Below are positions 12,192 to 26,936 of a stretch of 35,260 bases of DNA, in pieces. Within the stretch, counting starts at the first letter, position 1; each line of letters starts with the position of its first letter. The position numbers and the translations under genes were made by a program. The stretch is from an uncultured Eisenbergiella sp. (lineage in GTDB: Bacteria; Bacillota; Clostridia; Lachnospirales; Lachnospiraceae): NCBI GenBank assembly GCA_947630215.1, contig CANRGX010000025.1:1-35260 (forward strand). Direction: 5' to 3'. Under the pieces are notes generated by a model. It searched no databases. It was not told the DNA's origin and saw nothing but the letters and a program-made list of their open reading frames with translations.

Positions 12192-15140
12192 ATGAAAAAT
12201 TCTGCTAAAAAAATCGTCGTAGGTGTAGTGGTCGTAGCAGTGGTGGCTCTTTTCGCCTTTTTCATCCTGCATGATACGGTGGAGAATTTCAGCGACAAAT
12301 ACGCAGGAGCGGATCTCACCAAAGATGTGGAGGGCATGGAGAGAGAGGGAACCTATAGCGGATATCTTCTCGCCCATGGGGACGCTGCGTATCCCGGACA
12401 GGACGTGGACATCGATCTGTTCGGCTATTCCGACGCCAGCGACGTGGAAGTCTACGAGAATTACGAGGGCGAGGAGAAGGCGCTGTATACCGGATCCGGT
12501 TCCACCGCCACCTGGCAGGTGGAAGTGCCCGAAGCGGGTTTTTATAATCTTTATATGGAATATCTTGCGCCCGAGTCCCGGGGTGTGCCGGCGGAGCGTT
12601 CCGTCTATCTCAACGGCGAACTTCCCTTTGACGGCGCCAACAATATTACCTTCAGCCGGATCTGGATGGATGGCGACGTGGTCAAGGTAGATAACCAGGG
12701 CAACGAGATCCGGCCCATCCAGGTGGAGTCCTTCCAGTGGCAGTCGGCTTATTTCAAAGACGACATGGGCTATGAGACGGAGCCGTATCTGTTCTATCTG
12801 GATAAGGGCGTCAATGAACTGACGCTGGTTGGGGAGAACGAACCCCTGGTACTGCGCAGGCTGGGTCTGCGCGCGGTGAAGCAGCTGGACGACTATGCGC
12901 AGTATCTGGCCGCACAGCCTTCCGGCAGCAGCGTGTCCGGTTATTCTCAGATCATTCAGGGGGAAGATTCCACCTTCCGTTCCGAATCCTCTCTTTATGC
13001 AAAATATGACAGATCATCTCCGACGACCCAGCCCAACAGCGTGACCACCACGGTATTGAACTACGTGGGCGGCGACGCCTGGAAAAATTCCGGCCAGTGG
13101 ATCGAATGGGAATTTGAAGTGCCGCAGGACGGCTTCTACAACATCATGGTGAAGGGGCGTCAGAACTATTCCCGCGGCGTGGTGAGCAGCAGAAGCGTAT
13201 ACATAGACGGGCAGATCCCCTTTGAAGAAATGAAGGAGATCGCTTTCGATTACAGCAACGACTGGAACTGCATGACGCTGGGCGATGAGGAGGGCAATCC
13301 TTATCAGTTCTATCTGACGGCCGGCAAACACACCATCCGTCTGGAAGCCACCCTGGGCGGTGTGGGTTCCATCCTGGAGGAACTGGAGGATTCTACCTTC
13401 CGTCTGAATCAGATTTACCGGAAGGTGCTGGTATATACCGGCGCGAACCCCGACCAGTACCGGGATTATTTCATCGAGAGAAACTACCCCGAAGTGATGG
13501 AAGCCATGGATCTGGAATCCAAACGGCTGTTCAAGATCGTGGACGACATGGTGGCCTACAGCGGACAGAAGGCGGAAAATATCGCGTCCGCGCAGACGGT
13601 GGCCCAGCAGCTGGAGCGCTTCTGCAAGAAGCCCCAGAAAATCACGCTGGAATTTACGACCTTCAAGGATAATATCACGGCTCTGGGCACGGCGGCGCTG
13701 AACTTGAGCGAGACCAAGCTGGACATCGACTATCTCCAGGTTTGCAGTCCCGATGTGAAACCGGAAAACGACAAGTCCAACTTCTTCGGCAAGGCCTGGC
13801 ACGAGATGAAGTCCTTCGCGGCCTCCTTTGTGGTGGACTACAACTCGGTAGGCGATGTGTACGATGAGAACAGCGGCGAGGATGTGGTCAAGGTATGGAT
13901 CCTGACCGGACGCGACCAGGGTACGATTTTGAAGTCCATGGTGGACGACACCTTTACCCCCAATTCCGGCATCAAGGTCAACGTGGAAGTGGTGGATCCC
14001 AGCGCGCTGCTCAACGCGGTAATGGCGGGCAGGGGCCCCAACGTGGTGCTTTCCGTGGGCGCGGATCAGCCGGTCAACCTGGCTTTGCGTAACGCGGTGG
14101 AAGATCTGACCCAGTTTGAGGACTGGGAGGATGTGTTCTCCCACTATACCAAGAGCTCCTACGAGCAGTACGGATTGGACGGCCACATTTACGCCATTCC
14201 GGAGACACAGACCTTCAACGTCATGTTCTACCGCGAGGACGTGTTGGAGGAGCTGGGCGTGGAAGTACCCCAGACCTGGCAGGAGTTAATTGAACTGCTT
14301 CCCACGATCCAGGGGAATAACCTTTCTATCGGGATCCCCACGGCGGCCGGCAGCAGTACCACCACCACGGCCAGTACGTCGGTGGCGTCCAATACGCCGG
14401 ATCTGTCGTTGTACTTTACTCTGCTGTACCAGTACGGCGGCGATATGTATACCGAGGGCGGCGGCAAGACCACGGTGGATTCCGAAGCCGGTGTGAGGGC
14501 GTTTAAGGATTATGTCCGCTACTTCAACGATTACGGCCTTCCGACCATTTACGATTTTGTCAGCCGGTTCCGTTCCGGCGAGATGCCCATCGGCATAGCG
14601 GCCTATTCGACCTACAATACGCTGATGGTGTCGGCGCCCGAAATCCGCGGGCTGTGGGATTTCACACTGATCCCCGGCACGGAGTATACGAACGCCGACG
14701 GCAGTACCTATATTGATCGCTCCGACTTTATCACCGGCAACGCGACCATGATGATTGCCACGGAGAAAGAATCGCTGCGCAACGCCTCCTGGGAGTTCAT
14801 GAAGTGGTGGGCGCAGCCGGATACGCAGGTGCGTTTCGGACGGGAAATCGAGGCCCTCTTGGGATCCTCCGCCCGGTACGCGACGGCGAATAAAGACGCT
14901 TTCGTGCAGCTTTCCTGGAGCGCCGACGACATTGAGGTGCTCAGCGCCCAGTGGGATCAGACCGTGGGAATCCGGGAGGTGCCCGGCGGATACTTTACAG
15001 GCCGCCATATTACCAACGCCATCCGGAAGGTTATCAACGAAAAGGTGGATTCCCGCGAGACCATCATAGATTATGCGGTAACTATCAACGATGAGCTCAC
15101 CAAGAAACGGATTGAGTTCGGCCTGCCGTTGGAGGAGTAG
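12192..15140 (+). CDS. Membrane-anchored solute-binding protein fused to two CBM-like domains
   Basis: This is a 982-residue protein. One N-terminal hydrophobic segment (about residues 8-26) has no lipobox cysteine, so the protein is probably held by an uncleaved membrane anchor facing outward. Two related beta-sandwich domains follow (about 68-230 and 255-405). Each has a 'Trp-x-Val/Phe-Glu-Val-Pro-x-x-Gly-Phe-Tyr-Asn' strand, an 'Arg-Gly-Val...Arg-Ser-Val-Tyr' strand and an 'Phe-Tyr-Leu...Gly' strand, as in CBM6/CBM35-like modules. After a helical linker, residues about 564-982 form an extracellular family-1 sugar-binding domain. A solute-binding protein is usually 400-550 residues, so this is roughly twice the usual size. 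GGAGGG precedes the ATG at 12192. It begins a long operon with two permeases directly after it. The role proposed is capture of an oligo- or polysaccharide; the ligand is unknown. Confidence 0.85.
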   Translation: MKNSAKKIVVGVVVVAVVALFAFFILHDTVENFSDKYAGADLTKDVEGMEREGTYSGYLLAHGDAAYPGQDVDIDLFGYSDASDVEVYENYEGEEKALYTGSGSTATWQVEVPEAGFYNLYMEYLAPESRGVPAERSVYLNGELPFDGANNITFSRIWMDGDVVKVDNQGNEIRPIQVESFQWQSAYFKDDMGYETEPYLFYLDKGVNELTLVGENEPLVLRRLGLRAVKQLDDYAQYLAAQPSGSSVSGYSQIIQGEDSTFRSESSLYAKYDRSSPTTQPNSVTTTVLNYVGGDAWKNSGQWIEWEFEVPQDGFYNIMVKGRQNYSRGVVSSRSVYIDGQIPFEEMKEIAFDYSNDWNCMTLGDEEGNPYQFYLTAGKHTIRLEATLGGVGSILEELEDSTFRLNQIYRKVLVYTGANPDQYRDYFIERNYPEVMEAMDLESKRLFKIVDDMVAYSGQKAENIASAQTVAQQLERFCKKPQKITLEFTTFKDNITALGTAALNLSETKLDIDYLQVCSPDVKPENDKSNFFGKAWHEMKSFAASFVVDYNSVGDVYDENSGEDVVKVWILTGRDQGTILKSMVDDTFTPNSGIKVNVEVVDPSALLNAVMAGRGPNVVLSVGADQPVNLALRNAVEDLTQFEDWEDVFSHYTKSSYEQYGLDGHIYAIPETQTFNVMFYREDVLEELGVEVPQTWQELIELLPTIQGNNLSIGIPTAAGSSTTTTASTSVASNTPDLSLYFTLLYQYGGDMYTEGGGKTTVDSEAGVRAFKDYVRYFNDYGLPTIYDFVSRFRSGEMPIGIAAYSTYNTLMVSAPEIRGLWDFTLIPGTEYTNADGSTYIDRSDFITGNATMMIATEKESLRNASWEFMKWWAQPDTQVRFGREIEALLGSSARYATANKDAFVQLSWSADDIEVLSAQWDQTVGIREVPGGYFTGRHITNAIRKVINEKVDSRETIIDYAVTINDELTKKRIEFGLPLEE

Positions 15141-15151
15141 GGGAGGATAGC

Positions 15152-16090
15152 ATGAAAGAATATTGGAAGAAATATCTGACACTGCGAAAGCATAATATGC
15201 AGGTGGCCTGGAAAAAGGCGAAAAGAAGCAAGATGTGTTATGCCTTCCTTTTTCCTTACGCGCTGTTGTTTACCCTGTTTTACATCGCGCCGGTGGTGGC
15301 CTCCATCTTTTTCAGCTTTACCTATTACAACATCCTGGAGCCGCCCAGCTTTATCGGACTGCAGAACTATATCAGTCTGATTCTGGAAGACGACATTTTC
15401 CTGATTGGTCTGAAAAACACCTTCATGATCGCCGTCATCACCGGCCCGCTGGGCTACATCATGTCCTTCCTGTTCGCCTGGCTGATCAATGAACTTCCCA
15501 GGTGGGTGCGCAGCGTGGCGGTTGTGGTGTTCTACGCGCCCTCCATCGCGGGCAACTGTTACGTGATTTTCTCCGTGTTCTTCCGGGGAGACGCCAACGG
15601 CTATGTCAACGCCTTTCTGATGAACATCGGAATTATTGATAAGCCGATCCTGTGGTTCATCGATCCGAAGTATATGTTGCCTATCTGTATGCTGGTCATC
15701 CTGTGGATGAGCCTGGGCACCGGCTTCCTTTCCTTTGTGGCAGGCCTGCAGGGCGTGGATCGTTCCCAGTTTGAAGCGGGCTATATGGACGGCATCAAAA
15801 ACAGATGGCAGGAGCTGTGGTACATCACCCTTCCCAACATGAAGCCCATGCTGATGTTCGGCGCGGTTATGTCCATTACCCAGGCCTTCGGTGTCTGCGA
15901 CGTGACAATGGCCCTGTGCGGTTATCCCAGTACGGATTACGCGGCCCGTACCATTGTGACTCACCTGTTCGACTACGGCTTCACCCGTTTTGAAATGGGT
16001 TACGCGTGCGCAATCGCGACGATATTGTTCCTTATTATGATTCTTTGTAACAAGGCAATACAGAGTCTGTTGAGAAGAGTGGGGACCTGA
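15152..16090 (+). CDS. ABC sugar transporter permease (MalF/UgpA-like), first pair
   Basis: This is a 312-residue integral membrane subunit with six main hydrophobic segments. The cytoplasmic EAA loop is present at about residues 208-228 (Glu-Ala-Gly-Tyr-Met-Asp-Gly...Leu-Pro-Asn-Met), where the ATPase subunit docks. A positively charged N-terminal stretch of about 30 residues precedes the first membrane segment. It begins 11 bases after the CBM-fused binding protein with a GGGGAGGA site, and its stop is followed one base later by the ATG of the next permease. Together they should form the transmembrane channel served by the binding protein at 12192. No ATPase is encoded here. Confidence 0.92.
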   Translation: MKEYWKKYLTLRKHNMQVAWKKAKRSKMCYAFLFPYALLFTLFYIAPVVASIFFSFTYYNILEPPSFIGLQNYISLILEDDIFLIGLKNTFMIAVITGPLGYIMSFLFAWLINELPRWVRSVAVVVFYAPSIAGNCYVIFSVFFRGDANGYVNAFLMNIGIIDKPILWFIDPKYMLPICMLVILWMSLGTGFLSFVAGLQGVDRSQFEAGYMDGIKNRWQELWYITLPNMKPMLMFGAVMSITQAFGVCDVTMALCGYPSTDYAARTIVTHLFDYGFTRFEMGYACAIATILFLIMILCNKAIQSLLRRVGT

Positions 16091-16091
16091 T

Positions 16092-16994
16092 ATGAGCAAG
16101 AAGAAAAAACAAAAAAATGTAGAAGTAGTCTATCACAAAAAGCTGATCAAGAGAAGAAAACCCAACCGTTCCATCTGGGGAGATATTTTCCTCTACCTCT
16201 TTCTGCTGTTTGTGGCGGTGGTCATGGTGTTCCCCATCGTATACGCGGTCAGCAGCGCCTTAAAGCCGTTGGATGAACTGTTCAAGTTCCCTCCCCGGAT
16301 CCTGCCGCAGAACCCGACGATGGATAACTTCTCAGACCTGTTTGTGACCATGGGCAAATCCTGGGTGACTTTCTCCCGGTATCTGTTCAATACGGTGTTT
16401 ATCACATTCGTCGGAACATTCGGCCATCTGATTGTGGCATCCATGGGCGCCTTCGTACTGGCGAAATACGATTTTCCCGGCGGGGATACGTTCTTTAAGC
16501 TGGTTACCGTAGCCATGATGTTTACCGGCTATGTAACCCAGATCCCCAACTACTTGATCTTAAACGCCCTGGGCTGGATCGATACCTACTGGTCCATTAT
16601 CATTCCGGCTTTCGCTTCTCCCATGGGACTGTTTTTGATGAAGCAGTTTATGGAAGGGCTGCCCACCTCGCTGATTGAAGCGGCCAAGATTGACGGCGCC
16701 AACGAGTGGAGGGTGTTCTCCGGAATCGTAATGCCGAATGTGAAACCGGCCTGGATGACGCTGATTATCTTTTCTGTCCAGGGCCTCTGGAACAACAAGG
16801 CGGCTACCTTTATCTATTCGGAAGCGAAGAAGACACTGGTGTACGCCATGCAGCAGATCCAGAGCGGCGGTATCGCCAGAACCGGGCAAGGCGCCGCGGT
16901 GCTGGTGGTGCTGATGATTGTTCCCATCGCCATATTCATCTTCTCCGAGAGCCAGATTCTGGAAACCATGGCAAGCTCCGGTCTGAAGGATTAA
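16092..16994 (+). CDS. ABC sugar transporter permease (MalG/UgpE-like), first pair
   Basis: This 300-residue protein has six membrane segments. Its EAA loop at about residues 195-215 (Glu-Ala-Ala-Lys-Ile-Asp-Gly-Ala-Asn-Glu...Pro-Asn-Val-Lys-Pro) is of the MalG type. A Pro-Leu-Asp-Glu-Leu-Phe-Lys-Phe-Pro-Pro segment after the first membrane helix is typical of CUT1 permeases. Its first 30 residues are very rich in Lys and Arg. The ribosome binding site is weak, which fits translational coupling to the preceding permease one base away. The C-terminus Ala-Ser-Ser-Gly-Leu-Lys-Asp corresponds to the usual CUT1 permease ending. Confidence 0.92.
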   Translation: MSKKKKQKNVEVVYHKKLIKRRKPNRSIWGDIFLYLFLLFVAVVMVFPIVYAVSSALKPLDELFKFPPRILPQNPTMDNFSDLFVTMGKSWVTFSRYLFNTVFITFVGTFGHLIVASMGAFVLAKYDFPGGDTFFKLVTVAMMFTGYVTQIPNYLILNALGWIDTYWSIIIPAFASPMGLFLMKQFMEGLPTSLIEAAKIDGANEWRVFSGIVMPNVKPAWMTLIIFSVQGLWNNKAATFIYSEAKKTLVYAMQQIQSGGIARTGQGAAVLVVLMIVPIAIFIFSESQILETMASSGLKD

Positions 16995-17012
16995 CAGAAA
17001 ATGAGGTGGCCT

Positions 17013-18515
17013 ATGAAAAAGAGAATCAAGTCAATCGGCGTGCTGGCGCTGGGAGTTCTGATTTTGGCGGCGACGCCCCTCACCGTCTCGGCGCGGGAGA
17101 GAAGCTATACATACAACTACGATTACTGGGGCGATGTGCAGGATTCCCCGGACTTCTATACGGTGACGAAGGTATATCCGGCGGAGGCGTTCGGCCTGGA
17201 AGACAACTTCAGTACTCCCCAGGGGATGTTTGTGAAGGATGATATGGTCTACATCTGCGATACCGGCAACAACCGGATCGTGCAGCTGAAGCGCACGGGG
17301 ACGGAGCAGTTTGAGGTGGAGCGGATCTTCCACAGCATCCAGGGGAATACGGATGTCAAGGAGCTGTCCCAGCCTACCGACATTGCGGTTTCGGAAGAAG
17401 GGGATATTTACATCTGCGACCAGGGCAATGCCAGAATTGTAAAGCTGGACAGCGACTTAAATTATCTGCTTCAGTTCAATCTGCCGGTGGATTCCACGGT
17501 GAGCGCCGACAGCACCTTCAAGCCTTCCAAGCTGGTGGTGGATACGGCGGGGCGTGTGTACTGCATCGCCACCAGTATCAACCAGGGCCTGTGCAAATAT
17601 GAAGCGGACGGGACGTTTTCCGGATTCGTGGGAGCGACCCCCGTTACCTTCAACCTGGTGGACTATCTCTGGAAGAAATTTGCGACCCAGGAGCAGAGAC
17701 AGCGTATGGCTTCCTTTGTTCCTACCGCCTATGACAATATCTATATGGATCAGGAAGGCTTTATCTATGCCTGCGCCGGCGGCCAGGAGGAAGAAGATCT
17801 GGATTCCGGCGCCGCGGACGCGGTACGTAAGCTGAACCTGATGGGATCCGATATTCTGGTTCAGAACGGTGAATATCCCGCTTACGGCGACCTGTACTGG
17901 GGAGAGGGCGGCGGCTATGAGGGCCCTTCCTACTTTACCGACGTGACGGTGCTGGACAATGACATTTATGTCTGCCTGGACAAAAACAGGGGACGTCTTT
18001 TCGGCTACGACGATCAGGGCAAGACCGTATTCTGCTTCGGCGGCAACGGCAATATGGACGGCTTTTTCAGACAGCCGGCCGCCATTGAGCACATGGGACA
18101 CGATCTGCTGGTTCTGGATACGCTGGATTGCAGCGTGACGCTGTTTACGCCCACGGAGTTTGGAGAACTGGTTTACGACGCCATTGAACAGTTCGACGAA
18201 GGCGACTACGAGGTCTCCGGAGAAAGCTGGCAGAAGGTCATGGATCTGGACGGCAACTACGATCTGGCCTATATCGGGATCGGCCGTTCCCTGCTGCGTC
18301 AGGAAAAATACAAGGAGGCCATGGATTACTTTGAACTGAAATACGACGATGAAAACTACTCCAAAGCCTACAAACAGTACCGCAAGGAGTGGGTGGAGGA
18401 CCATATCGTCGTCATCGTCATCGTGGTTCTGGCGATTTTCCTGATTCCGCTTTCTATCGGCAAGGTCAAGAGCGTCAAGCATGAAATCGATATCGCAGAT
18501 ATCTTCAGATTCTAG
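17013..18515 (+). CDS. Secreted NHL beta-propeller / TPR protein with C-terminal membrane anchor
   Basis: This is a 500-residue protein with an N-terminal signal peptide (Lys-Lys-Arg, then a hydrophobic stretch, cleavage probably after Val-Ser-Ala near residue 27). Residues about 55-385 carry several NHL-type repeats. Recurring units such as Val-Tyr-Ile-Cys-Asp-Thr-Gly-Asn-Asn-Arg-Ile and Ile-Tyr-Ile-Cys-Asp-Gln-Gly-Asn-Ala-Arg-Ile mark the first two blades. A short TPR-like helical region lies at about 390-450 and one membrane segment at about 463-482, followed by a short charged tail. The propeller therefore faces outward, tethered to the membrane. The ATG at 17013 is chosen because the signal peptide starts there and an AGGTGG sits just before it; an in-frame ATG at 17001 has a poorly placed site. 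Function is unknown; a scaffold or glycan-sensing role in the transporter is a guess. Confidence 0.8.
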   Translation: MKKRIKSIGVLALGVLILAATPLTVSARERSYTYNYDYWGDVQDSPDFYTVTKVYPAEAFGLEDNFSTPQGMFVKDDMVYICDTGNNRIVQLKRTGTEQFEVERIFHSIQGNTDVKELSQPTDIAVSEEGDIYICDQGNARIVKLDSDLNYLLQFNLPVDSTVSADSTFKPSKLVVDTAGRVYCIATSINQGLCKYEADGTFSGFVGATPVTFNLVDYLWKKFATQEQRQRMASFVPTAYDNIYMDQEGFIYACAGGQEEEDLDSGAADAVRKLNLMGSDILVQNGEYPAYGDLYWGEGGGYEGPSYFTDVTVLDNDIYVCLDKNRGRLFGYDDQGKTVFCFGGNGNMDGFFRQPAAIEHMGHDLLVLDTLDCSVTLFTPTEFGELVYDAIEQFDEGDYEVSGESWQKVMDLDGNYDLAYIGIGRSLLRQEKYKEAMDYFELKYDDENYSKAYKQYRKEWVEDHIVVIVIVVLAIFLIPLSIGKVKSVKHEIDIADIFRF

Positions 18516-18531
18516 GGAAGGGGAGACCGGT

Positions 18532-19188
18532 ATGATTGCTGCACTGAATAATAAAATTGACTTTCAACGGTATCTGGGAAGCCTGAAATTTGCGCTGTAC
18601 TGTATTACCCATCCTCTGGACGGATTCTGGGATCTGACCCATGAAAAGAGGGGCACCTACGCGGCGGCCAACACCATCCTGTTTCTGACCCTTCTGATCA
18701 GGGTGCTCAAGCTGCGCTATACCAGTTTTATTTTCCTCACCGTTTACTGGGAGGATATCAACATTTTCCTGTATATTGCCAGTGTACTGTTCCCGCTTGC
18801 CATGTTTGTAATCGGCAACTGGGGCCTGACCACTCTGTTTGACGGCAAAGCGAGACTGGGGCAGGTCTATATGGCCAGCTGCTACGCGCTGACGCCGTAC
18901 CCGCTGATGCAGTTCCCGCTGATGTTTTTCAGTAATTTCGTCACGGTGGACGAGGCGGAGTTCTACTCGGTATTAAGCGCCCTTTCCCTGGTTTGGGCAG
19001 CGCTTTTGTTCATCGCCGCCATGGGCCAGATCCATGAGTTCGGAATGGCAAAGAATATGCTTTTTATGGTGGCCAGCCTGTTTGCCATGCTGGTAATCGT
19101 ATTTATCCTGCTGTTGTTCTTCGGCATGATTTCCCAGGGCGTTGCGTATTTCATTTCCCTGGCCAAGGAAATCATGTTCCGACTATAG
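18532..19188 (+). CDS. YIP1-family-like integral membrane protein
   Basis: This is a 218-residue protein with five hydrophobic segments and an amphipathic N-terminus. Its layout resembles the Yip1 family: an N-terminal Tyr-Cys-Ile-Thr-His-Pro-Leu-Asp-Gly-Phe-Trp motif, then membrane helices with a Gly-Lys-Ala-Arg-Leu-Gly-Gln-Val segment and a Tyr-Ala-Leu-Thr-Pro-Tyr-Pro-Leu motif. The ATG at 18532 is set by an AAGGGGAG at 18517-18524; a longer frame starts inside the NHL gene. Bacterial YIP1-like proteins have no established function. It lies between the NHL gene and the DUF5696-type gene, and I recall this neighbourhood recurring in Firmicutes sugar-transport loci, which would need a search to confirm. 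It may help assemble or anchor the neighbouring membrane proteins. Confidence 0.75.
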   Translation: MIAALNNKIDFQRYLGSLKFALYCITHPLDGFWDLTHEKRGTYAAANTILFLTLLIRVLKLRYTSFIFLTVYWEDINIFLYIASVLFPLAMFVIGNWGLTTLFDGKARLGQVYMASCYALTPYPLMQFPLMFFSNFVTVDEAEFYSVLSALSLVWAALLFIAAMGQIHEFGMAKNMLFMVASLFAMLVIVFILLLFFGMISQGVAYFISLAKEIMFRL

Positions 19189-19240
19189 CGGGAACGGAAC
19201 GGAAAAGATATCTGCCGGAACGTAAAGGATGGGAGTGACC

Positions 19241-21838
19241 ATGAAGAAAGAAAAATCAGTTAGAAAAGCAGAATGGAAGGCGGCCCTGATCGGACAGTTG
19301 AAAAGCCTGGCGGTGCCCGTGATCATAACGGCGCTTATCGCGGTTGCGATTGTGGTTATCATCAATTTCCAGACGGGTACGGAGCAGGAACCGGTGGTGG
19401 AGCTGAACGGATATGACGGGACCACGGATCCGATTGTGGTGGAGAACGACCGGCTGAAGCTGACCATGGATCCTGCCACCACGCAGTTTTCGCTGGAGGT
19501 CAAGGATACCGGGAAGGTCTGGTATTCCAATCCGCCCGAGGCGGCTGCGGATCCGCTGGCTGTGGCGTCGTACAAGGGAAGGCTCCAGTCCACGCTGCTG
19601 CTGACGTTCAGTCAGGCGACGGGACTGCAGACCACTTATGATAACTTCAGTTACGGCATTGACAATCAGCTCTATGAGATTGAGCAGGGCCAGGACTATA
19701 TCAAAGTCAACTATTCCATCGGCGAAGCGGAGAGAGAGTATCGGATCCCTCCGGTTACCACGGCGGAAAAGATGCAGGGGTGGTTCGACGCGGCCGGCAA
19801 ACAGGACGCCAGCTTTATCCGGCGTTACTACAAAAAATATGACATCAACGATCTGGACGAGGATGATAATCGGGAAGAACTTCTGGCGAATTATCCCATT
19901 CTGGAGACGGAACCCATTTATGTACTGAGGGATACCACCGTTTCGGGCGCGGCGACCATCAAGCTGGAACAGATTTTTGAGTCGGCCGGGTATACCGCAG
20001 AGGATCTGGAAGCGGACAAAGCGCTGAACAACAAGATCAAATCCAGCAACAAGCTGGTCTTCAACGTCAGCATCACCTACCGTCTGGATGGCGGGGATCT
20101 GGTGGTGGAGATGCCGCTGGATGATATGAAATACAAAAAGAGCGCTCCGATCTATACCATGGTCATGCTGCCTTACTTTGGCGCAGGCGGCCCGGAGGAT
20201 GAAGGCTATCTGATGGTGCCCGAAGGCGGCGGCGCGCTGATTCATTTCAACAATGAAAAACTCTCCCAGGCGTCCTATTATGCGAACCTTTACGGTTGGG
20301 ACATGGCGCTGTCCAGGGAAGCGGTGGTGCACGATACGCGGGTGTGTTTCAATGCGTTCGGCATTGCCAACGGCGACGATTCCTTCGTCTGTATCCTGGA
20401 GGAGGGCGCTCCCTACGCTTCCGTGCAGGCGGACATTGCCGGACACGGCGGCAGCTATAACTATGTGAACGCAATTTACAGCATCAGCCCCCGCGAACTG
20501 TTTGAGGTAGGCGATCTGGGCAGCCAGAGCACTTATAAATTCCTGGAGACTCTGCCCCATGAGACCCTGACCCAGCGGTATCGTTTCGTGGACAGCAACG
20601 ATTATGTGGATATGGCGAAGGCTTACCAGGGGTACCTGCAGGATAAGTACGGAGCGTATCTGACGCAGAACGACGATACACAGGCGCCTGTGGCGCTGGA
20701 AATCGTGGGCGCGGTGGATAAAGTTAAGCAGATCCTGGGCGTGCCGGTTTCCCGTCCCCTGCGTCTGACCAAATACAGCGAGGCGGAGGATATGATCCGC
20801 CAGCTTTCCGAGGAGGGCATGGGCAACCTGTCCGTGAAGCTGACCGGCTGGTGCAACGGCGGTGTGAACCAGAAGATTCTGCGCAAGGCCAAGACGATTT
20901 CGACACTGGGCAGTAAAAAGGATTTGAAGTCCCTGGGCGATACGGCCAAAGAGTTGGGCGCGGATCTGTATCTGGAGGGCGTGACCCACTATGAATATGA
21001 CAGCGGCCTGTTGGACGGCTTCTTCTCCTTTACGGACGCCGCGCGGTTCATTTCCAAAGAGCGGGCGGAGCTGTTTGTCTACAGCCCGGTGACCTACGCC
21101 GCGAGGGAAGGTGTGGACAGCTACTATCTGCTGCACCCGGATCTGATTCAGAAGAATACGGAAACGCTTGCGGCGGCAGCGGCGAAATATAACGCCAACG
21201 TGGCTTTCCGGGATACGGGCATGGATCTTTCCTCCGACTATTATCTGAAAGATACGGTGAGCCGGCAGAGCGCCATGGAGTCCCAGGCGCAGATGCTCAA
21301 GGATATCGAGGACGGCGGCCAGAAGAACCTGATCAATATGGGGAACGATTACGCCATTCCCTATGCGGACATGGTGACCGATATGGATCTGGCGGGCAGC
21401 GGCTATACGATTCTGGACGAGGAGGTTCCCTTCTATCAGCTGGCGATTCACGGGTTCGTGAATTACACGGGCGATCCTTTGAACACCTGTGGCAATGAAC
21501 AGCAGGAGCTGTTAGAGTCTGCGGAATACGGGGCCGGTCTTTCCTTCTCCCTGATGCGGGAGACAGCCTTTGCCCTGCAGAAGACCCTCTACACCGAGTA
21601 TTACGCATCCGATTTTGCCGTAGAGCATGACAGGATGATGGAAATTTATAACAGATATAACAGCGAACTGGGCCATGTGTTTAACCAGCAGATGGTCGAT
21701 CACAAAAAGCTGGACGGGAATATGTCCTGTACCACCTATGAGGACGGCACAAAGGTCTACGTCAACTACAGCTTTACCGATGGGATGACGCCGGAGGGCG
21801 TATCGGTTCCGGCAAGGGATTATAAGGTGATCCGCTAA
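19241..21838 (+). CDS. Large membrane-anchored DUF5696-type protein, possible glycan-acting enzyme
   Basis: This is an 865-residue protein. One uncleaved hydrophobic segment lies at about residues 23-45 and no lipobox is seen, so the rest should face outward. Residues about 60-480 look beta-rich, like the N-terminal sandwich of large glycoside hydrolases. Residues about 500-800 look like an alpha/beta barrel with strands such as Leu-Ser-Val-Lys-Leu-Thr-Gly-Trp-Cys-Asn (near 527), Ala-Asp-Leu-Tyr-Leu-Glu-Gly-Val and Val-Ala-Phe-Arg-Asp-Thr-Gly-Met-Asp (near 655). I assign DUF5696 from memory of the family and context. Barrel strand ends carry acidic residues, but I cannot name a catalytic pair. 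A GGGAG five bases before the ATG at 19241 favours it over the ATG at 19229. It stands between the two transporter permease pairs. Confidence 0.7.
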   Translation: MKKEKSVRKAEWKAALIGQLKSLAVPVIITALIAVAIVVIINFQTGTEQEPVVELNGYDGTTDPIVVENDRLKLTMDPATTQFSLEVKDTGKVWYSNPPEAAADPLAVASYKGRLQSTLLLTFSQATGLQTTYDNFSYGIDNQLYEIEQGQDYIKVNYSIGEAEREYRIPPVTTAEKMQGWFDAAGKQDASFIRRYYKKYDINDLDEDDNREELLANYPILETEPIYVLRDTTVSGAATIKLEQIFESAGYTAEDLEADKALNNKIKSSNKLVFNVSITYRLDGGDLVVEMPLDDMKYKKSAPIYTMVMLPYFGAGGPEDEGYLMVPEGGGALIHFNNEKLSQASYYANLYGWDMALSREAVVHDTRVCFNAFGIANGDDSFVCILEEGAPYASVQADIAGHGGSYNYVNAIYSISPRELFEVGDLGSQSTYKFLETLPHETLTQRYRFVDSNDYVDMAKAYQGYLQDKYGAYLTQNDDTQAPVALEIVGAVDKVKQILGVPVSRPLRLTKYSEAEDMIRQLSEEGMGNLSVKLTGWCNGGVNQKILRKAKTISTLGSKKDLKSLGDTAKELGADLYLEGVTHYEYDSGLLDGFFSFTDAARFISKERAELFVYSPVTYAAREGVDSYYLLHPDLIQKNTETLAAAAAKYNANVAFRDTGMDLSSDYYLKDTVSRQSAMESQAQMLKDIEDGGQKNLINMGNDYAIPYADMVTDMDLAGSGYTILDEEVPFYQLAIHGFVNYTGDPLNTCGNEQQELLESAEYGAGLSFSLMRETAFALQKTLYTEYYASDFAVEHDRMMEIYNRYNSELGHVFNQQMVDHKKLDGNMSCTTYEDGTKVYVNYSFTDGMTPEGVSVPARDYKVIR

Positions 21839-21877
21839 AGGGTCTGACAGGAAAAGTTTTCAGAAAGGGTAGTGGGT

Positions 21878-22789
21878 ATGAAAAGACAGAAGAACAAGTT
21901 AGCAGGGCTTCAGAAACGGAAAGCCATCTCGGGGTATCTGTTCATCTCACCGTTCATCATTGGATTTCTGCTCTTTATGGTGAAACCGCTCATTCAGTCT
22001 CTGTATATGAGCTTCTGCGATGTGCAGCTGGGATCAGGCACCTTTAACCCGGTGTGGAGAGGACTGTTCAATTACAATTATGCCTTCCGGGTGGATGCCG
22101 AATATGTGAGACTTCTGACGGAGGAGCTCAGCAGGATGGCGATTTATTCCGTCGCCATCATGGTATTCAGCTTCTTTGTGGCGCTGATCCTGAACGGGAA
22201 TTTCAAGGGCAGGGCGCTGGTGCGTTCCGTGTTCTTCCTGCCGGTTATCCTGGCATCCGGCGTCATGCTGAAGCTGGATTCGGAAAACGCGCTGATGGCT
22301 GCCGTAGCGGCGACCGTGGAGGTCAACGCCGGGGGCACCACAGGAATTACGGACGCCATCCAGAATATCCTGCGTACCACCGGGGTCGGTGTCAGGGCCT
22401 TTGAACAGCTGTTTGAGATCATGGATAACATCTACGATGTGGCCATTTCCTCCGGTATCCAGATCATCATCTTCCTGTCCGGGCTGCAGACCATTTCCTC
22501 CAGTATGTATGAGGCGGCGGATATCGAAGGCTGTACCAAATGGGAGAGTCTCTGGAAGATCACCTTCCCCATGGTCAGTTCCCTGTTTTTGGTCAACTGG
22601 ATTTACACGGTGGTGGATTTCTGCATGAGATCAGACAATGCGATTATTGAAAAAATCACCAATCTGATGAATGTAAACCTGAACTACGGACTGGCGTCGG
22701 CCATGTCCTGGGCATACTTCGTGCTGGTTATGGCCATTGTGGGAGTCAGTTCGCTGATTATTTCGAAGGGGGTTTACTACTATGAGTAA
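21878..22789 (+). CDS. ABC sugar transporter permease (MalF-like), second pair
   Basis: This 303-residue CUT1-type permease opens with a Lys/Arg-rich segment and a first helix Tyr-Leu-Phe-Ile-Ser-Pro-Phe-Ile-Ile-Gly-Phe. The EAA loop appears as Glu-Ala-Ala-Asp-Ile-Glu-Gly-Cys-Thr-Lys-Trp-Glu near residues 212-225. A stretch of about 60 hydrophilic and small residues (about 130-190) lies between two membrane helices and is longer than usual for the family; it may reach outside. The ATG at 21878 is preferred to the GTG at 21872, which would sit right against the AAAGGGT site. Its 3' end overlaps the next permease by eight bases, showing translational coupling. Confidence 0.9.
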   Translation: MKRQKNKLAGLQKRKAISGYLFISPFIIGFLLFMVKPLIQSLYMSFCDVQLGSGTFNPVWRGLFNYNYAFRVDAEYVRLLTEELSRMAIYSVAIMVFSFFVALILNGNFKGRALVRSVFFLPVILASGVMLKLDSENALMAAVAATVEVNAGGTTGITDAIQNILRTTGVGVRAFEQLFEIMDNIYDVAISSGIQIIIFLSGLQTISSSMYEAADIEGCTKWESLWKITFPMVSSLFLVNWIYTVVDFCMRSDNAIIEKITNLMNVNLNYGLASAMSWAYFVLVMAIVGVSSLIISKGVYYYE

Positions 22790-23795
22790 GAGCAAAACGA
22801 AGACGGCAAAATACGCGGGCTTCTGGGAACGGAACAAAAAATCCGGCGGTTACCTCCTTCGTAAGACGGTGATGAAGTACACGGTCAGCATCTGTCGGGC
22901 AATCCTGCTTTTCGGACTGTGCTTTCTGATCCTGCAGCCCCTTTTGAACAAAATATCGGTGAGCTTCATGACAGAGCAGGATCTTTACGATCCGATTGTG
23001 ACGTCCATTCCGCTGCATTTCACCACGGAGAATTACCGGCTGGCTGCCGGACTGATGGAATACGGGAAAACGCTGGTCAACTCCCTTGTGATTTCCTTGA
23101 CCATCGCCATTTTGCAGGTGAGCGTAAGCACCCTGGTAGGGTATGGGTTCGCCAGGTTCCAGTTCCCGCTAAAGAACTTCTGGTTCGCCTGCGTCATGGT
23201 CATGGTGCTGATTCCGCCCCAGGTCATTTCCACTTCCCTGCATCTGCATTTCCGTTTCTTCGATGTCCTGGGGATTTATAAGGCGATTACCGGCACGACC
23301 ATGAACCTCAAGTCTTCGGTGCTTCCGTACTATATGATGAGCGCGGGCTGTATGGGATTGAAGAACGGACTGTATATCTACATGATCCGACAGTTCTTCC
23401 GCAACATCCCCAAGGAGCTGGAGGAAGCGGCCTATGTGGACGGCTGCGGCACCTTAAAGACCTTTATCCGGATCATGCTGCCGGATGCAAAGCCCATTCT
23501 GACTTCCTGCTTCCTTTTCGCCTTTGTGTGGCAGTGGACGGACGGCTTTTATTCCAGTATGTTCCTGGGCAATATCAGTTTGCTGAGCATCAAGCTCAAG
23601 CAGCTGCCGGATACCTTCGGCGGCTATATGGCCCGTATCAGCGGGGCGTCCAGTTCCGCGGGCGTTTCCGTTCCGTACAGCAACTGTATGCTGGCGACCG
23701 GTACCCTGATGGTGATCGTACCGTTGATTGTCCTGTACCTGTTCGCGCAGAAGGGCTTTGTGGAGAGCTTAAGCAGCACGGGAATCAAGATGTGA
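22782..23795 (+). CDS. ABC sugar transporter permease (MalG-like), second pair
   Basis: This is a 337-residue permease of the CUT1 family. A charged N-terminal extension of about 35 residues precedes the first membrane helix, making it somewhat longer than usual (about 275-300 residues). The EAA loop is Glu-Glu-Ala-Ala-Tyr-Val-Asp-Gly-Cys-Gly...Leu-Pro-Asp-Ala-Lys-Pro near residues 210-233. It ends in Ser-Ser-Thr-Gly-Ile-Lys-Met, the normal CUT1-type tail. The start codon lies within the preceding permease gene and has GAAGGGGG upstream. Its partners are the permease upstream and presumably the lipoprotein solute-binding protein downstream at 23907. Confidence 0.9.
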   Translation: MSKSKTKTAKYAGFWERNKKSGGYLLRKTVMKYTVSICRAILLFGLCFLILQPLLNKISVSFMTEQDLYDPIVTSIPLHFTTENYRLAAGLMEYGKTLVNSLVISLTIAILQVSVSTLVGYGFARFQFPLKNFWFACVMVMVLIPPQVISTSLHLHFRFFDVLGIYKAITGTTMNLKSSVLPYYMMSAGCMGLKNGLYIYMIRQFFRNIPKELEEAAYVDGCGTLKTFIRIMLPDAKPILTSCFLFAFVWQWTDGFYSSMFLGNISLLSIKLKQLPDTFGGYMARISGASSSAGVSVPYSNCMLATGTLMVIVPLIVLYLFAQKGFVESLSSTGIKM

Positions 23796-23819
23796 TTCCG
23801 TGGCTGCCCCAAACCTGTG

Positions 23820-23886
23820 ATAAATTTCGCCCGGCGCGGCCCGGACCCGGAAAGATTATGTGGGACGCGCTGCGGCTGAAATTTAT
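23820..23886 (+). other. Inverted repeat with GC-rich core before the binding-protein gene
   Basis: In the 111-base gap between the permease and the binding-protein gene, ATAAATTTC at 23820-23828 is the exact complement of GAAATTTAT at 23878-23886. The pairing extends by GCC/GGC with one bulged base, and an inner GCGCG/CGCGC pair (23834-23838 and 23866-23870) is possible. The arm ends just before the AAGGAGGAGAG site. There is no T-run after it, so it is not a standard terminator. An mRNA-stabilising or processing structure is one reading. Confidence 0.45.
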
Positions 23887-23906
23887 ATAAGAAAAAGGAG
23901 GAGAGT

Positions 23907-25508
23907 ATGAAAAGAAAAACGTTAGGCAGATTGATGGCGGCTTCTATCGCGGCCGTTATGACGGTAGGTATGGTTGGCTGCGGCGGCAACAGCAGCGCGC
24001 CGGCTGACAACGCAGCGGATACCCCCGCGGCAGCGGAGACCCCCGCAGCGGCGGAGACGCCTGCAGCGGAGACCCCTGCGGCAGAGGACACTGCGGCAGC
24101 GGAGACCCCTGCAGCGGAAGATGACGGAATGGGCGAGGTGAGAATCGACCCCAAGACCGGCGAACCCTTCGACCTGGGCGGCATGGAAATCATCGTCGCC
24201 GACTGGTGGACCGATCCTACCGCTGAGCCTACTACCGAGTTCGGTGAGGCGCAGAAGGAATACCGCGACTGGCTGCAGGAGACCTACAACTTCACTCTGG
24301 TACAGAAGAACTACGCTGGCTGGGGCTGGGGCGAAGGCTCTATCGGCGAGGCATTTGTGCAGGCCGCTACTTCCGGTTCTGACGAAAACATCATTTATAT
24401 CCTGACCAATTCCGCTTCCACCGCTTCTTATGTGAGCCAGGGTCTGTGCTATGACATTTCCAAACTGGACGGCGATGTTGTCGATCTGTCCCGTGAGAAA
24501 TGGACCTGCAACGGCGAACTGACAAGCTGGGGTATCGGCGATGCCAAGTACGGCTTCTATGCCGGACCTTCGGAGCCCAGAGGCGGACTTTACTTCAACA
24601 AGACGGTGCTCAAGGATGCGGGCATTGATCCCGAGTCCATCTATGACATGCAGGCGGACGGCACCTGGACCTGGGATGCCTGGATTGATATTATGAGCAA
24701 AGTACAGCGCGATATCGATTCCGACGGCCAGATCGATGTATACGGCTGCGTACAGAACAACGGCGGTATGGTTATGCAGTGTATCCGTTCCAACGGCGGC
24801 GCTCTGGTGACCAAGAATCCCGACGGTACTTATGAACTGACCGCTGACAGCGATGCGGTAAGAGAAGGCCTGCACTTCGCCATTGACGAAGTAACCGACA
24901 AGTACTTCCTGAACTACAGCAACGAAGACGGCAGCAACTGGGAAGATTATAAGGTTCGTTTCATGAACGGTGAAGCCGCTTTCATGTTTGACGATGCGTA
25001 CTGCGCATACCAGGGCGGCTGGCTGACCGGTCAGTCCAAGGATGCCGACGGTAACGCGACTGCGGTTAACGGCGTTGAGCTGACCCAGCAGATCGACTAT
25101 GGCTTCGTTATGTTCCCGAAGGGGCCCAGAGCGAGTGACTATGTGACCAACAAGTCCAACAACGTTACCATGATGCCCGCTTCTTATGACGATGACAAGG
25201 CCAGACTGCTGATGTTTGCTTACGACGTGTGGACCGACGACGTTCCCGGTGAGGAATGGGAAGGCTACTACGGCCTGCTGGATAACCTGTACGGCGGCAT
25301 GAGAGATACCCGTTCCGTGGACGAGACCATCGACATGATGACCACCAGAGGCGTTGACGACGTGCACGCTATCGTTCCCAACTTCAACCCGAACGACAAC
25401 TTCCTGTATCAGGCCGGTGTCGGCGCGGATGCGGACGCTCTGCTGGAGCAGAACCTGGCCGAATGGCAGACTGCTGTGGACGAATTTAACGCTTCCATGC
25501 AGAAGTAA
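23907..25508 (+). CDS. Lipoprotein extracellular solute-binding protein (sugar ABC transporter)
   Basis: This is a 533-residue lipoprotein. A signal peptide of 24 residues ends in a lipobox Met-Val-Gly-Cys with lipidated Cys25. A low-complexity linker rich in Ala, Glu, Thr and Pro spans about residues 31-73. The binding domain follows (about 85-533), with many Trp, Tyr and Asp residues of the kind that stack on sugars. It is of the family-1 extracellular sugar-binding type. An exceptionally good AAGGAGGAGAG precedes the ATG. Its codons look biased toward C-ending choices for Asn, Asp, Phe and Tyr and toward GGC/GGT for Gly, as expected for an abundant protein, more so than in the housekeeping genes here. 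It follows the second permease pair and is closed by a terminator. The ligand is unknown; a plant cell wall oligosaccharide is inferred from the neighbours. Confidence 0.9.
   Translation: MKRKTLGRLMAASIAAVMTVGMVGCGGNSSAPADNAADTPAAAETPAAAETPAAETPAAEDTAAAETPAAEDDGMGEVRIDPKTGEPFDLGGMEIIVADWWTDPTAEPTTEFGEAQKEYRDWLQETYNFTLVQKNYAGWGWGEGSIGEAFVQAATSGSDENIIYILTNSASTASYVSQGLCYDISKLDGDVVDLSREKWTCNGELTSWGIGDAKYGFYAGPSEPRGGLYFNKTVLKDAGIDPESIYDMQADGTWTWDAWIDIMSKVQRDIDSDGQIDVYGCVQNNGGMVMQCIRSNGGALVTKNPDGTYELTADSDAVREGLHFAIDEVTDKYFLNYSNEDGSNWEDYKVRFMNGEAAFMFDDAYCAYQGGWLTGQSKDADGNATAVNGVELTQQIDYGFVMFPKGPRASDYVTNKSNNVTMMPASYDDDKARLLMFAYDVWTDDVPGEEWEGYYGLLDNLYGGMRDTRSVDETIDMMTTRGVDDVHAIVPNFNPNDNFLYQAGVGADADALLEQNLAEWQTAVDEFNASMQK
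24018..24119 (+). repeat. Degenerate in-frame tandem repeat coding Glu-Thr-Pro-Ala-Ala linker
   Basis: Imperfect units of 12-18 bases encode repeated (Ala)-Glu-Thr-Pro-Ala-Ala from residue 38 to 71 of the lipoprotein binding protein. The copies differ mainly in third codon positions. The segment makes a flexible, acidic, proline-rich tether between the lipid anchor and the binding domain, and it is a likely site of length variation between strains. Confidence 0.8.
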
Positions 25509-25544: not shown

Positions 25545-25576
25545 GGGGATGGTGTTTTCCGGGCGCCATCCCCTTT
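25545..25576 (+). terminator. Intrinsic terminator after the lipoprotein binding-protein gene
   Basis: A 10-bp stem (25545-25554 with 25564-25573, core GGGGATGG/CCATCCCC and one G-T pair) has a 9-base loop and is followed by TTTGTT. It starts 36 bases after the stop codon. The GH5 gene begins about 40 bases later without an obvious promoter, so partial readthrough is possible. Confidence 0.8.
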
Positions 25577-25616: not shown

Positions 25617-26936
25617 ATGAGAGAAGAAAAGAGAAGGAAAAGAATCCGCAGAGCGGCCGCTGTGGTTCTGTTGTTACTGGGAGCCGCAGGGCTTGCCGGC
25701 TGCGGCAGGACAGGTGTGGAGGAAGACGCCTTACAAACGGAGACAGAGGCAGAGACAAAGACGGCGGAAAGCACGGGAACGGAAAGCACGGGAACGGAAA
25801 GTGTGCGGGAAGAAAGCGCTCCGGCGGAAAGTCCCCAGGCAGAAAATCCCCAGACAGAAAGCGGAGAAGCAGAGACAGAGACAAAGACCGCAGCCGTGGC
25901 AGAGACGGATCGGTCGGCTGTGTTTGAGCTGTTTTCCCATATGACGGTGGGGTGGAACCTGGGCAATACCTTTGACTCCCACGGAGCAGGCAATTCCCTT
26001 GGGGCGGAGACATATTGGGGCAATCCTGTCACCACGAAGGAAATGATCGACATGGTGGCCGCCCAGGGCATCAACACACTGCGGATTCCGGTGACCTGGG
26101 CCGAGCACGTGGGGGCCGCTCCGGCGTATTCCATCGACAAAGCCTGGCTGGATCGGGTGGAAGAAGTGGTGGGCTATGGTCTGGACAACGGGATGTATGT
26201 GATCCTGGATACGCACCATGAACCCGATTTCTGGATGAAGCTGGACGAGGGATCGTTTGACGCAACCAAGGCCGAGCTGACGGCCATCTGGACGCAGGTT
26301 GCGGAGCGCTTCCGGGACTATGACGAGCATCTGATCTTCGAGGGGATGAACGAACCCAGGACAAAGGGGTCGCCCGCCGAATGGAGCGGCGGCACCGGGC
26401 CGGAGCGCGCGGCGGTAAATGAGTTAAACGGCGCGTTTCTTGACGCGGTCCGTGCCGTGGGAGGCGGCAACGAAACCCGCTGCCTGATCATCTGTCCTTA
26501 CGGCAACAGCGTGACCCGGGATACTCTGCAGACCTTGAAGCTATATGACGATCCCAATCTTGCGGTATCCGTGCATCTGTATACGCCCTATTTCTTTACC
26601 TATGATGCCCAGGGGGGATATGCCCAGTGGGATGGAAGCAAGAAGTCGGAAATTGTCTCCAATGTGGATCTGGTCGATACGTTCCTCTTACAAAAGGGAG
26701 TCCCGGTGATTGTGACGGAGTTTGGTGCGGTCAACAAGAACAACACGCAGGACGAGATCCGCTGGCTGCAGGATTACCTTGGCGTCATGCAGGAGAAGGG
26801 GATCAAATGTATCTGGTGGGACAACGGACAGTTTGTCGGAAACGGGGAGAATTTTGCGCTGCTGGATCGCAGGAATCTCAAATGGTTCTCCCAGGAAGTG
26901 GCGGACGCCCTGGTAGAGGCGGCGGGAGGTAGATAA
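25617..26936 (+). CDS. GH5 family endoglucanase-type lipoprotein
   Basis: This is a 439-residue lipoprotein. A basic N-terminus and hydrophobic stretch end in Leu-Ala-Gly-Cys with lipidated Cys29. A Glu/Thr/Ser-rich linker covers about residues 33-97. The GH5 barrel covers about 100-435 and shows the family signatures in order: Gly-Trp-Asn-Leu-Gly-Asn-Thr-Phe-Asp (112-120), Leu-Arg-Ile-Pro-Val-Thr-Trp, Asp-Thr-His-His-Glu, the acid/base Glu246 in Gly-Met-Asn-Glu-Pro-Arg, Ser-Val-His-Leu-Tyr-Thr-Pro-Tyr, and the nucleophile Glu368 in Thr-Glu-Phe-Gly-Ala. The style is closest to subfamily 4, which includes endo-beta-1,4-glucanases, xyloglucanases, lichenases and some xylanases. The start has a weak ribosome binding site, but no alternative start retains the signal peptide. 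It should act on the cell surface and feed the transporters upstream. Confidence 0.92.
   Translation: MREEKRRKRIRRAAAVVLLLLGAAGLAGCGRTGVEEDALQTETEAETKTAESTGTESTGTESVREESAPAESPQAENPQTESGEAETETKTAAVAETDRSAVFELFSHMTVGWNLGNTFDSHGAGNSLGAETYWGNPVTTKEMIDMVAAQGINTLRIPVTWAEHVGAAPAYSIDKAWLDRVEEVVGYGLDNGMYVILDTHHEPDFWMKLDEGSFDATKAELTAIWTQVAERFRDYDEHLIFEGMNEPRTKGSPAEWSGGTGPERAAVNELNGAFLDAVRAVGGGNETRCLIICPYGNSVTRDTLQTLKLYDDPNLAVSVHLYTPYFFTYDAQGGYAQWDGSKKSEIVSNVDLVDTFLLQKGVPVIVTEFGAVNKNNTQDEIRWLQDYLGVMQEKGIKCIWWDNGQFVGNGENFALLDRRNLKWFSQEVADALVEAAGGR

Follow-up and report, generated by a model that had tools for sequence, protein, structure and literature searches.

Several described systems resemble parts of the locus studied here. 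The SusCD systems of Bacteroidota combine a TonB-dependent channel with a SusD lipoprotein. According to excerpts of the respective papers, a shared MsmK has been described for Caldicellulosiruptor (PMC8579813), the catalytic domains of NagBb and GH101 are alike (PMC8106489), and DagB, an active GH129-like enzyme composed of a beta-sandwich, a TIM barrel and an Ig-like domain, has retained, of the NagBb catalytic pair, the Asp alone and uses other acids (PMC5698469). In the heteromeric amino acid transporters, 4F2hc or rBAT provides an anchored ectodomain of the glycosidase kind that supports the transporter (excerpt of PMC8537225).

The 35,260-nucleotide stretch that was analysed (the window) holds a nine-gene cassette that has features in common with each of these systems. 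With the CUT1 importers relying on shared MsmX/MsmK it has in common the permease pairs, the solute-binding proteins and an ATPase gene outside the nine-gene block, but it differs in possessing two permease pairs together with three conserved, dedicated non-ABC proteins. Like SusCD loci it is present in many diverged copies per genome, here in some lineages; the cassette consists of ABC importers instead, and no SusC/SusD-type Pfam match was obtained in the nine genes at E ≤ 0.01. Its DUF5696 protein is homologous to GH129 and DagB by sequence profile and matches GH101 by fold search, but the catalytic pair conserved in GH129 is degenerate in DUF5696, which in further contrast is predicted to be extracellular and is linked to a transporter. 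The likeness to 4F2hc/rBAT is hypothetical and lies in an anchored glycosidase-type ectodomain aiding a transporter; these vertebrate proteins differ in having an alpha-amylase (GH13-type) ectodomain and an SLC7 partner, whereas no GH13 Pfam match was present in the nine genes and DUF5696 is of GH129 type by sequence. A literature search found no described role of DUF5696 or its YIP1/NHL partners. DUF, Yip1, NHL and TPR are not mentioned in the excerpt of PMC8579813, nor are YIP, DUF and NHL in that of PMC6484121.

Layout and protein content of the cassette

An earlier note on this DNA had described nine co-directional genes framed by two terminators, and gene calls, Pfam matches and two strong hairpins bear this out. 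The genes occupy positions 12192-25508 and are separated by 1-111 bp or overlap (Table 1). The upstream hairpin was absent from the terminator scan list and was found by reading the sequence and then folding it. No Rfam family reached its gathering score in the window. Prediction also agrees with the membrane tethering that the earlier note had assigned to the three middle proteins, with a C-terminal TM segment in the NHL protein, a polytopic YIP1 protein and an N-terminal TM segment in DUF5696.

Table 1. Features of the cassette and its immediate surroundings in the window
Feature	Position	Strand	Evidence
Symmetrical hairpin followed by U-run, terminator candidate upstream of the cassette	11963..12010	+	MFE -30.1 kcal/mol, z -5.4
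CBM-SBP1, N-anchored solute-binding protein with CBM35-like modules	12192..15140	+	Pfam SBP_bac_8/1, own HMMs
PermA, CUT1-type permease	15152..16090	+	47.4 bits
PermB, CUT1-type permease	16092..16994	+	47.1 bits
NHL beta-propeller with TPR, signal peptide and C-terminal TM	17001..18515	+	
YIP1-domain polytopic membrane protein	18481..19188	+	Yip1 38.1 bits, cut-off 28.6
DUF5696, membrane-anchored (N-terminal TM), GH129-fold, probable pseudo-glycosidase	19229..21838	+	626.8 bits
PermC, CUT1-type permease	21872..22789	+	29.2 bits
PermD, CUT1-type permease	22782..23795	+	46.4 bits
SBP2, lipoprotein-like solute-binding protein with lipobox-like start	23907..25508	+	SBP_bac_1 25.9 bits, cut-off 26
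Terminator hairpin after SBP2	25545..25573	+	MFE -21.5, z -3.6
Separate downstream genes: GH5, two unknowns, GH43, GH10	25617..31658	+	

CBM-SBP1 starts with an ATG at 12192 behind a GGAGG at 12182 and has an N-terminal hydrophobic anchor. Its single CBM_35 stretch is sub-threshold in Pfam; further CBM-like modules were detected in the protein with our own HMMs, and Pfam CBM_35 matched in 6 of 20 aligned CBM-SBP1 members (best 2.8e-8). As a solute-binding protein CBM-SBP1 scores above the Pfam cut-off and SBP2 just below it. All four permeases exceed the cut-off for BPD_transp_1, which amounts to two per CUT1 importer. No ATPase gene for the two importers is present in the window. An MsmX-like ATPase with 56% identity to Paenibacillus UgpC is encoded elsewhere in the genome (G000:C19:12723-13820), and we infer that it serves the cassette importers; on a Paenibacillus plasmid, a gene annotated as UgpC ATPase lies ahead of the cassette.

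Beside its NHL propeller, the protein encoded at 17001-18515 carries a TPR stretch that the earlier note had not named. The YIP1 gene that follows possibly starts at 18532, as in most relatives. Going beyond the earlier note, we found that NHL-TPR and YIP1, which are separate genes in the window, form a single polypeptide in 39 of 79 loci, and Yip1 (PF04893) was matched by all 14 aligned fused proteins at E ≤ 0.01. The NHL and YIP1 HMMs were domain-trimmed before the loci were labelled because fused proteins had entered both sets and mixed the two labels. On the DUF5696 tree, built without nine close Lachnospiraceae loci and with L101 manually labelled as split, the fused or split state of 69 labelled rows changes five times, with four changes forced by supported branches. 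Apparent NHL-only and YIP-only loci proved to be mostly artefacts, since long antisense ORFs had displaced real genes in gene calling; a six-frame search without overlap filter left two loci lacking YIP1, and in both it was recovered in other searches. A Foldseek search with the AlphaFold model of YIP1 (mean pLDDT 62.1) gave no structural match below E 1.0.

Distribution of the cassette

DUF5696 was detected in 41 of 398 sampled genomes of the phylum (E ≤ 1e-20), about a tenth. NHL-TPR/YIP1 occurred in the same 41 genomes and as a partial match in G282, and CBM-SBP1 in the same 41 and in seven more (E ≤ 1e-60). Five of these seven match in the SBP part only; the match in G157 begins at a contig edge, without the CBM part, and G158 and G200 hold a full-length CBM-SBP1 without a DUF5696 match on contigs of only 3.8 and 4.3 kb. 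Copy numbers in this survey are lower bounds, as two to three candidates at most were scored per genome.

For the analysis of gene neighbourhoods 89 DUF5696 loci were taken, leaving out L113-L116, which scored below 200 bits with our own DUF5696 HMM. Where enough upstream sequence was available, NHL-TPR lay beside DUF5696 in 79 of 79 loci and YIP1 in 77 of 79, and two permeases followed downstream in 79 of 84. YIP1-like, NHL and DUF5696 genes stand beside permeases in named Lachnospiraceae and in 18 families of the phylum; the arrangement also occurs on a Butyrivibrio plasmid and a Paenibacillus plasmid. A neighbour scan took 85 of 117 listed proteins as input and covered the 25 families at the head of the 112 that matched. 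Weaker PF18952 matches were not counted as cassette members. Among them, L013 is a GH129 protein to which L011, L012 and L014 are 59, 60 and 37% identical; L015-L018, L023 and L025 were excluded as well.

Genome co-occurrence and locus counts together indicate that the layout is more than chance. The statement in the earlier note that YIP1-like and DUF5696 genes recur together in sugar-transport loci of Firmicutes is supported, and since the trio recurs beside permeases, the single machine is not refuted by the note's own criterion of middle genes lying apart from the transporters in most genomes.

DUF5696 as a relative of GH129 glycosidases

Profile-profile comparison by hhalign aligned DUF5696 with GH129 at 99.9% (E 1e-35, 477 columns), and the DUF5696 profile matched the PDB entries 5opq (4.6e-16) and 5wzq (9e-10). 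The homology extends over the TIM barrel. The AlphaFold model of DUF5696 is too poor for pocket work (mean pLDDT 54.5); with this model Foldseek matched 5opq at E 8.7e-18 with a TM-score of only 0.21, also matched GH101, and returned weak rows for LAT1-4F2hc with a TM-score of about 0.15.

In the window protein, Asp662 occupies the nucleophile position (Asp435 of NagBb). The acid/base Glu, which in GH129 sits 43 residues past the nucleophile and which we take to be the catalytic Glu478 of NagBb, is replaced by Asn703. Among 40 transporter-linked DUF5696 members, picked out of 92 HMM matches so as to be diverse, the Asp is kept in 14, the Glu in seven and both in three, leaving the pair incomplete in 37, whereas all seven GH129-like rows keep both residues. 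Four D/E/H/C/W positions besides the nucleophile are fixed in these seven rows, and at three of them (an Asp, a His and the Glu) most DUF5696 members carry another residue. A simple rule assigned a lipobox to eight of the 40 members, a hydrophobic N-segment to 28 and no anchor to four. DUF5696 is also the fastest-changing part of the cassette (mean identity 28.2% vs 46.8% for PermA in 21 chosen cassettes), which would fit weak constraint as well. In our reading DUF5696 is probably a pseudo-glycosidase and a subunit of the transporter; the apparent loss of its cutting residues suggests that it grips or guides sugars rather than cutting them.

A proposed glycan import system and its alternatives

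We propose that the nine genes specify a system by which Bacillota import glycans at the cell surface, composed of two CUT1 importers and dedicated accessory proteins, a reading to which we assign a probability of about 0.58; co-inheritance of the components has been shown by computation. Module 1 would consist of CBM-SBP1 with PermA/PermB. Module 2 would combine PermC/PermD with DUF5696 and an NHL-TPR(-YIP1) scaffold in the membrane, and SBP2 usually belongs to it as well. Oligosaccharides cut outside the cell would be captured by CBM-SBP1, DUF5696 and SBP2 and then imported, with energy provided by a shared MsmX-type ATPase. DUF5696 may act outside the cell as a subunit without catalytic function, binding glycan, stabilising the permease pair or both, and NHL-TPR-YIP1 would keep DUF5696 and the binding proteins in place at the permeases. 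The cargo in the window is likely a xylan-derived oligosaccharide because GH5, GH43 and GH10 genes adjoin the cassette.

How tightly the two modules belong together bears on a different explanation, in which two independent CUT1 importers share one locus and NHL-TPR, YIP1 and DUF5696 serve in assembly or glycan sensing and stand outside transport. NHL propellers and TPRs serve as general-purpose interaction domains, and the two modules can occur apart and in unequal copy numbers. When all candidates were fully scored, with contig-end fragments counted, DUF5696 and CBM-SBP1 matches numbered 10 vs 4 in both G118 and G184, 8 vs 4 in G210, 11 vs 6 in G097 and 20 vs 10 in G137, and these counts take in fragments above all in G137 (310 contigs, 5% contamination) and G097. 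Furthermore, CBM-SBP1-PermA-PermB trios without module 2 within roughly 5-8 kb on either side were found at L127, L128, L131 and L134. Independent importers are nevertheless improbable in our view, as both modules are present together in 41 of 41 DUF5696 genomes and paralogous cassettes diverged as units: in three genomes, eight of the nine components (SBP2 left out) group by cassette and not by genome. The single machine envisaged in the earlier note is partly supported, by co-divergence and co-inheritance, but a strict unit of both halves is not supported in view of the unequal copy numbers and a CBM-SBP1 trio that can stand alone.

The proposed non-catalytic role of DUF5696 has to be weighed against the idea that the protein remains catalytically active at the cell surface, as a glycosidase whose catalytic pair has moved, so that the importer would carry its own trimming enzyme. 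DagB is active although it has kept, of the NagBb pair, just the Asp (excerpt of PMC5698469); a missing Glu by itself is hence no proof of inactivity, and the moved catalytic acids of DagB leave room for enzyme activity in DUF5696. The nucleophile-position Asp is among the residues that the window protein retains, three members keep both catalytic residues, and Asp358, Asp670 and Glu766 are kept in 34, 33 and 33 of the 40 rows. On the other hand, no Asp, Glu, His or Cys column is common to more than 34 of these rows and most of the other positions fixed in GH129 have been replaced. We therefore regard retained activity as unlikely.

Within the non-catalytic reading, a bolder version is tentative and rather doubtful, though worth stating: the cassettes might form a multi-subunit class of glycan importer in Bacillota, in which a dead GH129-fold ectodomain on a propeller-TPR-YIP1 scaffold is a subunit that an ABC permease pair requires and from which it gains its specificity, similar in kind to 4F2hc/rBAT and multiplied in a SusCD-like manner. 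If true, some lineages would possess about ten or more diverged importer copies per genome.

DUF5696 is recognised here, beyond the earlier note, as a degenerate GH129-fold protein that is inherited with permeases. Genes that had been anonymous can thereby be placed in a testable model of how glycans are taken up. The model would apply to Gram-positive bacteria of gut, rumen and soil and may add a case of a dead glycosidase turned transporter subunit.

Layout and recurrence of the cassette

The window makes up one entire contig (G000:C25) of a 2.57-Mb assembly, and the closest named relatives of its genome are Eisenbergiella and Lachnospiraceae assemblies, several of which carry the label Lapin and are therefore presumably of rabbit origin. 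Gene calls and domain matches bore out the parts list of the earlier note, namely a CBM-fused solute-binding protein (CBM-SBP1), two permeases (PermA, PermB), an NHL protein, a YIP1-like protein, a DUF5696 protein, two further permeases (PermC, PermD) and a second binding protein (SBP2). In addition, the NHL protein bears a TPR stretch (hence NHL-TPR). SBP2 scored 25.9 bits, just short of its cut-off of 26, and the CBM_35 match of CBM-SBP1 lies under its cut-off.

Features in and around the cassette
Feature	Position	Strand	Remarks
Upstream hairpin	11963-12010		fold -30.1 kcal/mol, z -5.4
Nine-gene cassette	12192-25508	+	inter-gene gaps 1-111 bp or overlaps
Antisense ORF	19256-21451	-	731 aa; covers DUF5696 gene
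Downstream hairpin	25545-25573		fold -21.5 kcal/mol, z -3.6
Genes 3' of cassette			GH5, two unknown proteins, GH43, GH10
Two adjacent genes after GH5	26937-28815		products of 316 and 300 aa
AraC regulator	downstream of cassette	opposite	

Long antisense ORFs repeatedly overlie cassette loci and misled gene calling. The 316- and 300-aa proteins encoded after GH5 show sub-threshold similarity only, to Peptidase_U32; neither matched an NCBIfam model, and a PDB search with the 316-aa protein, the first after GH5, gave no match. Genes of similar size come after SBP2 in several close relatives.

Conservation was assessed in 75 neighbourhoods (64 from a draw of 398 genomes, the window included, and 11 from a separate search) and in 18 named Lachnospiraceae loci, three of which are the same contigs as matches from the separate search. 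With a custom HMM, the DUF5696 gene was detected above 200 bits in 89 of 93 loci. The YIP1-like, NHL and DUF5696 genes recur together with permeases: where a DUF5696 locus offered more than 2.6 kb of upstream sequence, NHL-TPR was present in 79/79 and YIP1 in 77/79 cases, the two exceptions (L047, L101) showing YIP1 in other searches, and two permeases came next downstream in 79 of the 84 loci with enough sequence, one being called in the other five. CBM-SBP1 was found in 61 of 89 loci within the sequence covered, several loci stopping at contig ends.

Because many loci are close orthologues, genome counts weigh more than locus counts. DUF5696 occurs in 41 of the 398 genomes drawn from the phylum (23/271 genera, 18 families), and all 41 carry NHL-TPR/YIP1 as well as CBM-SBP1, the latter cut by a contig edge in genome G157. 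Elsewhere in the draw, a partial NHL-TPR/YIP1 match lies where an 8.5-kb contig ends (G282), full-length CBM-SBP1 is found in G158 and G200 on contigs of 3.8 and 4.3 kb, and five further genomes match the SBP part of CBM-SBP1 only. A laxer DUF5696 search in G158, G200, G282 and G135 gave no match. On plasmid pNP243 of Butyrivibrio fibrisolvens D1 the order is GH43, CBM-SBP1, two permeases, NHL, YIP1, DUF5696, two permeases and two SBPs. In Paenibacillus cellulosilyticus, a member of the Bacilli, a gene annotated as UgpC ATPase stands ahead of CBM-SBP1, two permeases, a single 719-aa NHL-TPR-YIP1 protein, DUF5696 and two permeases. Adjoining the Paenibacillus cassette (L120, 15958-25181) are several annotated LLM flavin-dependent oxidoreductases, one of which matches the NtaA/DmoA family, an NADPH-dependent oxidoreductase and two SBPs; we take these oxidoreductase genes to be reminiscent of sulfosugar monooxygenase pathways.

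In the literature searched, which leaves most subscription papers outside its coverage, we found no mention of DUF5696, of the YIP1 family together with an ABC transporter and NHL repeat, or of the NHL repeat in connection with Caldicellulosiruptor. Yip1 combined with ABC transporter and xylan gave a single match there which, judging from its catalogue entry, concerns a fungus.

DUF5696 and the GH129 glycosidases

In a single-sequence search, the N-terminal domain of the window DUF5696 protein matched PDB 8rzk, 8rzg and 5opq (5e-9 to 9e-9). When 40 diverse transporter-linked members were combined into a profile, it matched 5opq (4.6e-16), 8rzg (1.7e-15) and the GH129 enzyme NagBb (5wzq, 9e-10). 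Compared profile to profile with seven GH129-like proteins, DUF5696 aligned across 477 columns at E 1e-35, a stretch corresponding to residues 324-856 of the window protein. The available part of PMC5698469 equates the catalytic Asp435 of NagBb with Asp486 of DagB; in the GH129 member L013, which matches NagBb at 1e-250, Asp434 aligns with NagBb residue 435. This nucleophile position is Asp in 14/40 DUF5696 rows and the position 43 residues further on is Glu in 7/40; L048, L050 and L085 are the sole DUF5696 rows to retain both. The seven GH129-like rows all have both. At other D/E/H/C/W positions fixed in the GH129-like rows, an Asp and a His are mostly replaced in DUF5696, and one further His is kept in 25/40. 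The best-kept acidic column of DUF5696 reaches 34/40. In the window protein the two catalytic positions are occupied by Asp662 and Asn703, as MAFFT and hhalign agree.

Since the residues of the catalytic positions are mostly missing from DUF5696, the window protein is probably a pseudo-glycosidase. Against this counts the case of DagB, which according to the available part of PMC5698469 is active though it retains the Asp alone of the NagBb pair, so that this superfamily can move its catalytic acids. Two proteins from G005, a genome of the same genus as the window, are akin to both GH129 and DUF5696 (L010 and L021, the same places as L113 and L114); they keep both catalytic-position residues, show no signal peptide by eye and are possibly active cousins.

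A pseudo-glycosidase beside a transporter may be likened to the 4F2hc/rBAT heavy chains, a comparison drawn here; these combine a single transmembrane segment with an ectodomain of the alpha-amylase family and support transporter stability and trafficking (PMC8537225, available part). DUF5696 anchoring varies between members, which weakens the comparison. LAT1-4F2hc was among the weak Foldseek matches of a DUF5696 model (6jmq, E 4.9e-4, TM 0.15), which is no evidence of kinship because the query model was poor.

NHL-TPR/YIP1 fusion and glycan neighbours

NHL-TPR and YIP1 form one polypeptide in 39/79 loci, and NHL and Yip1 matches were both present in 14/14 fused proteins of protein set A3. 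On a quick DUF5696 tree with several long branches (69 labelled rows), the fused or split state requires five changes, of which well supported branches force four. This recurrence of fusion argues that the two proteins act as one unit. In the window a YIP1 start at 18481 would make their ORFs overlap by 35 bases, and a start at 18532 would leave no overlap.

Among the matches listed for 85 proteins near cassettes (the first 25 of 112 matching families), GH42, GH43, GH3 and GH5 occur three times each, GH26 and GH31 twice, and GH2, GH10, GH30, pectic acid lyase and apiosidase once, together with non-glycosidase families; in two loci of genome family f107 the cassette is followed by GH43 with CBM6 and GH26 with CBM27. 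Given such varied glycosidases, the cassette does not look bound to one glycan. Our best guess for the cargo in the window is a xylan-type oligosaccharide. Mean pairwise identity in 21 chosen cassettes was 28.2% for DUF5696, 29.5% for YIP1, 34.3% for NHL, 36.6% for PermC, 38.2% for PermD, 41.8% for the SBP1 domain, 45.7% for PermB and 46.8% for PermA. The rapid change of DUF5696 would suit a ligand-facing part and also a weakly constrained one.

One machine or two modules

The earlier note had proposed a single machine. Paralogous cassettes in G365, G122 and G401 (seven loci in total) allowed comparison of DUF5696, NHL-TPR, YIP1, CBM-SBP1, PermA and PermB in all seven loci and of PermC and PermD in six. 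Cassettes of the same type share 72-98% identity across genomes and those of different types 33-72%, whether in the same genome or not. The identities thus group by cassette type, so the eight parts diverged together. This favours the proposal, as does the presence in 41/41 DUF5696 genomes of the draw of both module 1 (CBM-SBP1, PermA, PermB) and module 2 (PermC, PermD, NHL-TPR and YIP1 whether fused or separate, DUF5696 and usually SBP2).

Copy numbers and instances of module 1 standing alone, however, count against a strict unit. DUF5696 and CBM-SBP1 matches number 10/4 in G118, 10/4 in G184, 8/4 in G210, 11/6 in G097 and 20/10 in G137, the DUF5696 counts including fragments; they are equal in G155 (3/3), G371 (4/4), G122 (2/2) and G365 (3/3). 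G118 has 10 fused NHL-TPR-YIP1 and 10 DUF5696 matches, equal totals that are not a one-by-one pairing. CBM-SBP1-PermA-PermB trios lack module 2 in the flanking sequence covered at L127, L128, L131 and L134. The five genomes with unequal counts are small (2.2-3.0 Mb) and have 8 to 20 DUF5696 matches each, fragments included, and the DUF5696 expansion lies in genome families f84 and f70. The cassette thus comprises two modules, often joined in one operon-like block.
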